DNA of 32,526 nucleotides from Prevotella sp. (GTDB taxonomy: Bacteria; Bacteroidota; Bacteroidia; Bacteroidales; Bacteroidaceae), in the NCBI GenBank assembly GCA_017458225.1, contig JAFTFX010000033.1:1-32526 (forward strand), given 5' to 3'. The notes beneath the pieces were generated by a model. The model was not told the origin of the DNA and ran no database searches. It saw only the letters and a program-made list of their open reading frames with translations. Shown here piece after piece: positions 18,526-32,526 of the stretch (position 1 is the stretch's first letter; each line of letters begins with the position of its first letter). The translations under genes and the position numbers were made by a program.

Positions 18526-18683
18526 GTTCCAAACCTGACGTGCGTATGGTGAATGTCTACGTATTCTTTTATGCCCTAAAAGTTAGTGTGGATTTCACCA
18601 CGAGGACACGAAACATTAACCAAAACAATGAGCAAGATGAGATTAAAAGCATTACTGACATTAACTACATTCAACGAGTTTTT

Positions 18684-18759
18684 GCTTGTAAGCAAAAGGT
18701 CTTCTGCTTGTAAGCGAATGGTCTTCTGCTTGTAAGTGAATGGTCGTTTGCTTGTAAGC
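18684..18759. repeat. 22-bp tandem array, four units with palindromic core
   Basis: The core GCTTGTAAGC (one copy ends GT) recurs at 18684, 18706, 18728 and 18750, exactly 22 bases apart. The outer two copies extend to the palindrome TTTGCTTGTAAGCAAA. Linkers (GGTCTTC, GGTCG) are similar but not identical. It lies between the candidate RNA and the punA terminator. Other content of the gap 18526-18850: a small hairpin ATTTG/CAAAT with CCGC/GCGG at 18780-18804, and no gene. Confidence 0.9.
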
Positions 18760-18842
18760 AAAAGCTGCAAAGGCTCAGGATTTGCACCGCAATATGCGGC
18801 AAATAGTACTGTCAAAGAACATGTTTTGTACCGCAAAATCCA

Positions 18843-31122: not shown

Positions 31123-32403
31123 ATGACACATGAGACTATAGACAAAAGAGAGAAGCCATGGAGGCCGGTCGACCCCTTGCGGCACCATCGCGAAAAGGGA
31201 TGGGACTATCGAGGCCGTGCCATCTATCACTTCACGCTACCTGTGGAGGGGCGCTATCCGCTGTTTGGCACGCTCGAGGGCGAGCATGCTGAAACGGCTT
31301 ATGTCAGGCTCAACGCTTTTGGACAGCGTGTGTGCCGGATGCTCAGCGAACTTGCGCAATTCTACAAGGGAAAAGGGTATGCCCTGAAAGTGCTGGCACA
31401 GATGGTGATGCCCGACCATGTGCATCTGGTCATACAGGTGCTGGAACCGCTTCCGCAGAGCATTGGGGCTGTGGTGCGGGGATTCAAGAGTGGTTGCACT
31501 AAGGTTTACAAGGAGGAGTTCTATCACAGCGGCGAGAACGCCGCTGAAATGCACGGAGGGACGCAGACACCCACTGAAGCGAACGGAGGGGCGCACCCCA
31601 CTGAAGCGAACGGAGGGACGCAGACACCCACTGAAACGAACGGAGGAGAACAGACACTCGCTGGAGTGCACGGAGGGGCGCAGACACTTGCTGAAACGAA
31701 CGGGAACGTCCCCGTGCAATTTGTCCGCATTTTTGCGGGCAGGGGCAGTATCTGGCAACAAGACAAGGCCTATTATCACGAGCGCATCCTTCATGCACCG
31801 GGCCAGTTGCGCAGAATGATTGATTACGTGAAGGATAATCCACGCCGCCTTTGGCTCAAAAGGCAGAACCCAGACCTGTTTCGCATGCATAGAGCAACGG
31901 TGCTCTGTGGATTGCCGTTCACCTCTTTGGGCAACCATTTCCTGCTGCAATGGCCTGACCGTCAGTTGGTGGAGATGTCACGGAGTGCAGACAGCACGAC
32001 TATCGAAAAACGGCTGAAAGAAGTGCTGGCAGCAGCACATCAAGGTGCAGTGACCTATACGGCGGCCATCAGCAATGGCGAGCGCCTTATTGCCAGAACC
32101 GTCCGCGAACAGGGTTTCCCCCTGGTAGTGATGTTGGCAGACGGCTTTCCTGCCGATGGGTCTCCGCATGAGCGGTATTACAAACCCGGTGGGGTCTACT
32201 TCGAAGCCTGCTCAAAAGGGCACCTGCTCTTGCTGGAGCCCAAGGAGAGTGCATACGAAGCCCCTGCGATTGTAACGGCTGTGGAGGAGGCACTACGCCG
32301 GAAGGCTGAAGCCAAGCACTACGCCTATACTGCAGTGCCCCACATATCGAAGCGCTACCGCTTTGTGGCTCTGAACGAGATTGCACGTAAACTTTCAAGA
32401 TAG
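31123..32403 (+). CDS. REP-associated-type Y1 transposase (RAYT) with extra C-terminal domain
   Basis: A 426-residue protein. Residues about 30-245 form a Y1/HUH transposase of the IS200-like RAYT group: His99-Val-His101 in M-P-D-H-V-H-L-V, a Trp-Gln pair (211-212, G-S-I-W-Q-Q), and Tyr235 in D-Y-V-K-D-N-P as candidate nucleophile. RAYTs are usually 150-230 residues and act on palindromic REP DNA. Here about 180 further residues follow; I-S-N-G-E-R-L-I-A and Y-K-P-G-G-V-Y-F with L-L-L-L-E-P look like a Rossmann/SLOG (DprA-like) fold, but that is inference. Residues 144-192 are a 10-residue repeat block. A 20-bp inverted repeat lies just downstream. Confidence 0.85.
   Translation: MTHETIDKREKPWRPVDPLRHHREKGWDYRGRAIYHFTLPVEGRYPLFGTLEGEHAETAYVRLNAFGQRVCRMLSELAQFYKGKGYALKVLAQMVMPDHVHLVIQVLEPLPQSIGAVVRGFKSGCTKVYKEEFYHSGENAAEMHGGTQTPTEANGGAHPTEANGGTQTPTETNGGEQTLAGVHGGAQTLAETNGNVPVQFVRIFAGRGSIWQQDKAYYHERILHAPGQLRRMIDYVKDNPRRLWLKRQNPDLFRMHRATVLCGLPFTSLGNHFLLQWPDRQLVEMSRSADSTTIEKRLKEVLAAAHQGAVTYTAAISNGERLIARTVREQGFPLVVMLADGFPADGSPHERYYKPGGVYFEACSKGHLLLLEPKESAYEAPAIVTAVEEALRRKAEAKHYAYTAVPHISKRYRFVALNEIARKLSR
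31552..31698. repeat. 30-bp tandem repeat inside the transposase, five units
   Basis: Units at 31552, 31582 (27 bases), 31609, 31639 and 31669 each open with (A/C)ACGGAGG and continue with a CAGACAC-like core. They encode H/N-G-G-x-Q-T-x-x-E/G-x repeats placed between the HVH motif and the catalytic Tyr. All units are multiples of three, so the frame survives copy-number change. Confidence 0.92.
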
Positions 32404-32435
32404 AAGTGCAATTTCTTGGGAGCATAAATAGACTC

Positions 32436-32500
32436 CCTCTCCGCAGGACTCAGACGTTCTCGGAGCGTAGCGACGAGGTTGTCTGAGTCCTGCGGAGAGG
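32436..32500. repeat. 20-bp perfect inverted repeat downstream of the transposase
   Basis: CCTCTCCGCAGGACTCAGAC (32436-32455) is repeated exactly in inverse at 32481-32500, around a 25-base loop with an inner CTCG/CGAG pair (32459-32462 and 32474-32477). It starts 33 bases after the transposase stop. No T-run follows on either strand, so it is more like a REP-type target element than a terminator. Confidence 0.85.
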
Positions 32501-32526
32501 AAAAATCAATCAGCAATGCAAATAAA

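Follow-up and report, generated by a model that had tools for sequence, protein, structure and literature searches.

A RAYT-type transposase joined to a DprA-like domain, and the hairpins within its gene, in Prevotella and near kin

The locus

Near the end of the window, by which we mean the whole stretch of DNA analyzed (32,526 nucleotides of contig JAFTFX010000033.1, Prevotella sp. assembly GCA_017458225.1), lies an uninterrupted forward-strand open reading frame of 426 amino acids. Its product has the two parts of a HUH-Y1 endonuclease core on either side of a variable linker and, beyond the core, an extension that resembles DprA. The features of the locus are as follows.

31123..32403, + strand: RAYT-SLOG fusion gene, 426 aa; an insertion sequence supplies the last four codons and the stop
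31210..31503, + strand: HUH part of the Y1 endonuclease core, residues 30-127, with HVH at 99-101; placed by the Pfam Y1_Tnp match and the conservation of H99 and H101
31527..31546, + strand: in-ORF DNA hairpin 1, CAGCGGCGAGAACGCCGCTG; 8-bp stem, 4-nt loop
31553..31703, + strand: 30-bp tandem array of about 5 copies, coding for the variable linker
31722..31741, + strand: in-ORF DNA hairpin 2, TGTCCGCATTTTTGCGGGCA; one T.G wobble in the window copy
31783..31872, + strand: second part of the Y1 core, residues 221-250, with Tyr235 and the N-P motif; placed by conservation in homologues
31888..32388, + strand: DprA-like SLOG-type C-terminal domain, residues 256-422; placed by profile matches and conservation
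32388..32526, + strand: end of an IS30-type insertion sequence, with a long palindrome of its own (32436-32500); the contig ends inside it

As seen from the 3' ends of homologues, the IS30-type element replaced the last codons of the gene from position 32388 onward. The repeat beginning there occurs at nine places in the same genome, seven of them identical over 101 to 102 bases and two at 99% and 96%, and its relatives adjoin transposase frames that are IS30-type by eye. Each of the eight copies opened lies no more than two bases from a contig end, and the repeat probably broke the assembly at this point. The palindrome at the window's end was considered as a REP sequence and rejected; the dispersed repeat belongs to the IS30-type element. 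Short tandem arrays also occur elsewhere in the window, at 18683-18764 (22-bp units) and 1554-1621 (21-bp units).

The nuclease core and its homologues

Homologues were compared as a set of 92 full-length proteins of at least 300 aa, 83 of them distinct, from which frames running off a contig and 14 frames shorter than 300 aa were left out; conservation figures come from 19 positions tested across the 83. A HUH motif and a single downstream catalytic tyrosine follow one another in the order expected of a RAYT or HUH-Y1 transposase. H99 and H101 are each present in 83/83 and Y235 in 82/83, which bears out the RAYT core that a first-pass annotation of this DNA had recognized from HVH at 99-101 and Tyr235; beyond the tyrosine, N239 is found in 83/83 and P240 in 54/83. 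Pfam Y1_Tnp matched residues 84-138 of the window protein at E 6e-5, barely above the cut-off, and scored under it for the proteins of L002 and L025, while the best NCBIfam match of the window protein was REP_Tyr_transpos (E 1.4e-8; 34.7 bits, where the curated cut-off is 80). The linker between the HUH and Tyr parts, at about residues 135-200 of the window protein, is encoded by the 30-bp tandem array lying between the two DNA hairpins and ranges among homologues from almost none to about 110 residues.

The homologues fall into types by their HUH domains. Thirty-one genes have more than 60% HUH identity to P0001 and form the P0001 type; a second type of 30 genes, mostly of about 340 aa, carries D-H-H-H and in the majority of cases has no linker; the remaining 22 belong to neither, although some of them are near one type.

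The genome of the window (2.24 Mb, 75% complete) encodes two more members, on contigs C43 (352 aa) and C11 (386 aa). Among 60 genomes searched (this one, 35 congeners, and 24 others of the order), the family was matched in 21: the window's own, 18 congeners, and two from other families, of which one (L025, genome G053) is a full fusion by alignment and the other (L024) aligned over the HUH part alone. When GTDB contigs were scanned for the C-terminal part, this yielded 83 confirmed loci, of which 80 were kept, mostly, to judge by titles, in Prevotella or Bacteroidales MAGs from ruminants; a close relative (L039) is carried by the named type strain Xylanibacter brevis ATCC 19188. The best explanation of these observations is that the fusion constitutes a RAYT system of one gene, found in rumen Prevotella/Xylanibacter and their near kin.

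The C-terminal extension is conserved

The window's family runs about 170 residues beyond the core, and ordinary RAYTs are without these residues. An ordinary Bacteroidia RAYT of 184 aa (L175) stops just past the Tyr-x3-N-P helix. With a HUH profile, RAYTs were found in 89 of 295 genomes of the class, the window's own counted, and the 136 class-level frames outside that genome have a median length of 209.5 aa; five of the 136 reach at least 330 aa, of which the one opened, L187, resembled a read-through. The extra length that the first-pass annotation had pointed out therefore stands in a survey of the class, as some 170 conserved residues against that median.

Conservation in the 83 homologues begins at about residue 251 and continues onward, with G270, E320, K354, P355, C363, and G366 invariant (83/83) and N271 and R287 each in 82/83. 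Median pairwise dN/dS was 0.073 in the HUH domain (354 pairs) and 0.116 in the SLOG domain (138 pairs), the pairs being non-independent. Such figures bear on the idea that the extension is a functionless passenger: one decayed half of a former SLOG gene, fused to the RAYT and kept solely for folding or stability. That idea would suit a domain without the last strands of its fold and without the Arg of DprA motif 2, but the low dN/dS, the six tested positions at 83/83, the presence of the domain in the P0001 type, in the 340-aa type, and in the mixed 22 (including L025 of another family), and its exchange between HUH types, described below, speak against it, and we consider it very improbable.

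Relationship of the extension to DprA

The first-pass annotation had likened the extension, by eye, to DprA/SLOG folds. A profile of 23 diverse family members (A3), compared by hhalign with 18 DprAs of relatives, aligned collinearly over 80 columns (probability 27.5%, one-to-one E 6.5e-4), the IS-x-GE block falling on the DprA SG-x-AYG-x-D segment, the YKP block on the IYP segment, and the AC..G.LL block on the G-x-L-x-TE strand. An earlier profile made mostly of close relatives had matched a different DprA region; the collinear alignment came with the diverse one. Searched singly against Pfam, the 23 members gave weak matches to 16 families, among them DprA (E 0.06) and YspA/SLOG (0.064), with three unrelated families scoring ahead of DprA (PEX6_vert_N, 0.0017; Glyco_trans_1_2, 0.014; CbiG_C, 0.034). 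The window protein as a single sequence found no SLOG match in Pfam (PEX6_vert_N, at E 9e-4, was under its cut-off) and no match in the PDB, where profile A3 and the L143 protein likewise found no SLOG match.

The decisive link to DprA runs through stand-alone relatives. Profile A3 matched 6 of 395 genomes of the class: the window's own, four whose stand-alone frames measure 153-196 aa (E 4.2e-12, 1.5e-11, 6.5e-10, and 3.5e-7), and one with a fragment containing stops. The top Pfam family for all four stand-alones is PF02481 DprA (E 3.1e-6, 5.4e-6, 5.3e-6, and 2.6e-5), with scores of 24.0-27.0 bits that all lie below the gathering score of 29.6, and three of the four match NCBIfam dprA far below its cut-off. 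The fused domain aligned with the stand-alones at 98.8% probability (E 1.2e-16). The four stand-alones by themselves reached 13.2% against DprA, and a joint profile of fused and stand-alone sequences scored 34.6 against the 18 DprAs (probability 35.7%), compared with a maximum of 24.3 in 100 column shuffles. A profile of the stand-alones matched 24 of 395 genomes of the phylum, the window's own included, where it recovered two of the three fusions and missed that of the window; it also matched further stand-alone frames beyond L143-L146, some of them partial, as well as longer DprA-like proteins and, at E 5e-6, the protein of L228, which we read as a full DprA.

Because profile matches lead from the fused domain to the stand-alones and from these to DprA, and because the alignment is collinear, the extension is supported as a DprA-like SLOG domain with a putative Rossmann fold. 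The likeness first noted by eye thus finds support in profiles, significant by way of the stand-alones and modest when the fused domain is compared with DprA directly. Those modest direct scores would also be expected if the extension had some other Rossmann-like or alpha/beta fold and matched DprA through convergent short motifs; since the two-step chain is significant at each step, collinear, and better than 100 shuffles, we regard this as extremely improbable.

Departures from DprA

The ssDNA motifs of DprA have been given as G-S/T/A-R and F/L/Y-x-x-R-N/D (PMC9769556), and Arg52, Lys137, and Arg143 are described as important in the Helicobacter pylori protein (PMC4489622). In the region of the first motif, the homologues have S286 in 75/83 and R287 in 82/83, and the Gly position is Cys, Met, or another residue in the rows shown; in that of the second, F414 is found in 68/83 and N418 in 82/83, and Leu replaces the Arg, a residue reportedly important for binding ssDNA, in 81/83. 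The fused domains finish at or soon after the x-N helix, where the last strands of DprA begin, so that they do not make up the full Rossmann domain, with strands after the R-N helix, that characterizes DprA proper; the stand-alones and DprA both extend past this helix. Given its early end and the Leu at the motif 2 Arg, the fused domain, as read from its sequence, is DprA-like but not a DprA. A separate DprA is encoded in the same genome.

Judged by the residues of Streptococcus pneumoniae DprA, the half of the fold that contacts DNA would presumably be kept and the half for dimerization and RecA would be lost. We give close to even weight to the SLOG domain binding ssDNA. With that other half missing, it might also be unable to pass DNA to RecA or to dimerize like DprA, a suggestion we make tentatively. 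A coupling of the fusion to ssDNA handling, as the first-pass annotation had imagined, is plausible; the nucleotide sensing that it named as the other possibility gained no direct support.

Stand-alone relatives and their neighbors

The surroundings of the unfused relatives are varied. At L143 (1372-3284) genes for DarT and a macrodomain protein, recognized by Pfam, precede a stand-alone DprA-like gene, and L209 appears by eye to be arranged likewise; it is possible that the stand-alone gene is a third component of DarTG operons. The L143 protein had no matches among phage and plasmid records. At L221 (1102-3400) the gene of a DprA-like protein, matched by the stand-alone profile, adjoins what by eye is a RecQ-like fragment, an arrangement resembling that of PsyrTA. 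At L208 (1465-3004) about 570 bp separate a stand-alone DprA-like gene from an ordinary RAYT frame with an amino-acid repeat in its linker, and a fusion could arise from such an arrangement; in genome G281 an ordinary RAYT and a stand-alone DprA-like gene are on separate contigs (C86 and C91). In PADLOC, one A3 member matched PsyrA (E 0.007) and another REase_II (0.008), and a DprA query found the PDB entry "DprA-like antitoxin protein ShosA."

The main rival to an ssDNA-holding role draws on these neighbors. In this view the SLOG domain serves regulation or the binding of a partner, like that of DprA-like antitoxins, and would sense a nucleotide or hold a toxin or host factor and so switch the nuclease. 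The stand-alones near DarT and macrodomain genes, the DprA-like protein beside the RecQ-like fragment, the PsyrA match and the ShosA entry, and the altered ssDNA motif 2 all favor it. However, no toxin is joined to the RAYT, none was recognized by eye near the window gene and the two paralogues of its genome, and the S-R motif and the basic YKP block are retained. We judge this regulatory role rather unlikely.

Hairpins within the gene

Hairpins are a regular feature of the linker. Among the 51 homologues with a linker of at least 25 aa, 46 have a perfect stem of at least 7 bp there and 42 one of at least 8 bp, counts in which kinship between rows is uncorrected. Synonymous-codon resampling expects 3.3 linkers with a stem of at least 7 bp, and the downstream remainder of the same genes contains any such stem in 7/51.

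Pairing was followed in the P0001 type, over every distinct row from those of its 31 genes in which the site exists. Hairpin 1 is at its site in 30 of the 31 genes (21 distinct rows), with 96.4% of cells paired and changes on both sides of the stem at 6 of 8 pairs, a number reached in 0 of 500 shuffles and compared with a maximum of 2 pairs in slid controls. For hairpin 2 (23 distinct rows), 88.6% of cells are paired and both-sided changes occur at 3 of 8 pairs; these fill 7 cells against 1.9 in shuffles (0/500 as high), but the pair count was reached by 30 of 500 shuffles, one slid control also gave 3 pairs, and the stem is broken in several rows, in part of the clade. The case for compensatory changes is thus strong at hairpin 1 and less so at hairpin 2.

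Hairpin 1 is a single site in its own genome at up to 3 mismatches, and the linker array was found nowhere else in that genome except for one 24-base match (E 0.19). By eye, linker repeats frequently begin anew at the right arm of hairpin 1, followed by its 3' neighbor, as in L071 and L006. Eight loci have copies of linker hairpins outside the linker, and in the P0001 type such flank copies are rare, occurring at three loci: 452 nt after the gene in L063, 2107 nt before it in L092, and 2150 and 36 nt before it in L109. These extra hairpins perhaps lie partly in remnants of further RAYT genes.

Hairpins beside the gene

In the 340-aa type the hairpin is GCGGATNNAATCCGC, followed nine bases on by ACGGGAC. 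The stem alone, at no more than one mismatch, lies within -25 to +40 of the stop codon in 23/30 genes and within 600 bases upstream in 14/29, with 13 having it on both sides, and farther away it was seen once in 131,559 bp; the stem is itself palindromic, so that stem-only matches carry no orientation. The tagged hairpin is on the gene's strand for all matches in 25 listed loci, where some entries represent the same region; in L078 and L094 the upstream hairpin differs and its tag is reversed. Of 60 whole genomes, 4 contain the tagged motif, with 8 sites in total that all adjoin a gene of this type (two of them on apparent duplicate contigs), against 0 for a reversed-pattern control; genome G023 has a gene of the type and no tagged motif. 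Beside 340-aa genes at L046 (4565-4714), L049, and L052, a GCGGAT hairpin forms local arrays of 4 to 8 per locus at no more than one mismatch.

The paralogue on C43 has TTGCGTTGTCAACGCAA upstream, in the linker (with one mismatch), and downstream, and nowhere else in its genome at one mismatch. Because the tagged motif, TTGCGTTGTCAACGCAA, and hairpin 1 are all confined to the gene, the hairpins are private to it rather than dispersed REPs in the whole genomes searched, where near-exact copies were sought and genome-wide dispersal of the REP kind was not found.

We judge that the HUH domain probably cuts the hairpins of its own gene, although the rarity of flank copies in the P0001 type weighs against these as the substrate. 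The hairpins might instead work at the level of mRNA, where they would slow translation or be bound by the protein in autoregulation, since they lie within the transcript and hairpin 1 shows compensatory change. Yet the 340-aa type, which lacks the linker, has its hairpin outside the reading frame, often on both sides and at a fixed spacing to ACGGGAC, and the in-frame hairpins of subclass 2.4 RAYT genes are described as REP sequences (PMC6006769); a role in mRNA therefore seems improbable.

A search for recent transposition showed none, identical copies within a genome being duplicate contigs. For two pairs of species, the similarity breaks off directly upstream of the gene, a break that rearrangement might account for as well. 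Between L078 and L094, from two species, similarity of the loci ends just outside the gene on both sides.

Exchange of the SLOG module between HUH types

Mean identity between the two types is 39.9% in the HUH domain and 69.2% in the SLOG domain, whereas within types the HUH domains are 83-86% identical and the SLOG domains 73-74%. In the HUH tree a branch with SH-aLRT 100 separates each type from the rest. The SLOG tree requires at least 6 changes for each type, 2 of them forced by starred branches; two genes of the 340-aa type (L034 and L040) group with the window's own group, and constraining that type together costs 84 log-likelihood units (p-AU 6.7e-7, from quick trees with long branches). 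Because of this conflict between the trees, and of 40% identity in one domain against 69% in the other, we conclude that the SLOG module was exchanged between genes with different HUH domains. The type of hairpin seems to go with the type of HUH domain.

Interpretation and comparison with known systems

Our analysis leans toward a model in which a HUH nuclease works on its own hairpins while a DprA-like module holds ssDNA. The HUH-Tyr domain would act on hairpins carried by its own gene, in the coding sequence or in the flanks, and the C-terminal domain would hold ssDNA beside the nicking domain, so that the fusion would tether the enzyme to ssDNA during replication or DNA uptake. More speculatively, and with a good deal less confidence, these genes could be modular ssDNA systems made of a fast-specializing HUH domain with a private hairpin, an exchangeable truncated DprA-like effector, and a self-diversifying linker. 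The effector would then connect the nuclease with the ssDNA metabolism of the host or with a response of the toxin-antitoxin kind, and hairpin cutting would diversify the linker, a proposal equally conjectural.

Genes of the superfamily occur in more than 25% of the species analyzed in PMC6006769; a DprA-like domain that is conserved and exchangeable directs attention to ssDNA metabolism or a SLOG-type response. Private hairpins and the exchange of one domain between HUH types suggest separate evolution of hairpin recognition and of the other function. For experiment, the fusion offers as handles specific residues (R287, E320, and K354), the hairpins, and the type strain X. brevis ATCC 19188. 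RAYTs, in-gene REPs, and DprA are all known, and our searches of open-licence literature turned up no description of a RAYT that carries a DprA/SLOG domain; nor did they yield anything on DprA-like proteins with DarTG or on PsyrTA with DprA.

The nearest described relatives are the RAYT or TnpA-REP proteins of subclass 2.4 (RAYT group 4; PMC6006769), which share the HUH-Y1 core with N-P after the Tyr and the W-Q seen in the window protein, and count Bacteroidetes among their hosts. They too have a variable insert with short repeats and in-frame hairpins, described as REPs, between HUH and Tyr, so that in-gene hairpins as such were already known; their frequency here and the compensatory changes are new additions. 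The subclass differs in its HUH motif (N-H-[IFV]-H, against D-H-V-H here) and in its REPs, which bear GT[AG]G feet, whereas the present hairpins have other neighbors and were seen nowhere but at the gene across the whole genomes searched. No domain follows the core in that subclass as the text of PMC6006769 presents it, in which the words DprA and Rossmann do not appear; in the window's family about 170 conserved residues do.

IS200/IS605 elements have in common with the fusion a HUH-Y1 enzyme, and the 340-aa type is often flanked by an identical tagged hairpin in one orientation; the fusion differs in its extra domain and in that no evidence of mobility was seen. With DprA (PF02481, TIGR00732) the extension shares the S-R after the first strand, the SG-x loop, the xYP segment, the G-LL strand, and the x-N helix, but it ends after that helix, has Leu for the Arg of motif 2, and is joined to a transposase. 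The closest counterparts by profile are the stand-alone proteins L143-L146, which have the same GN..LL start, C-S-R, and G-x-LL-x-x-P, and which differ in being unfused and in retaining both the sequence beyond the helix and the R-N of motif 2.
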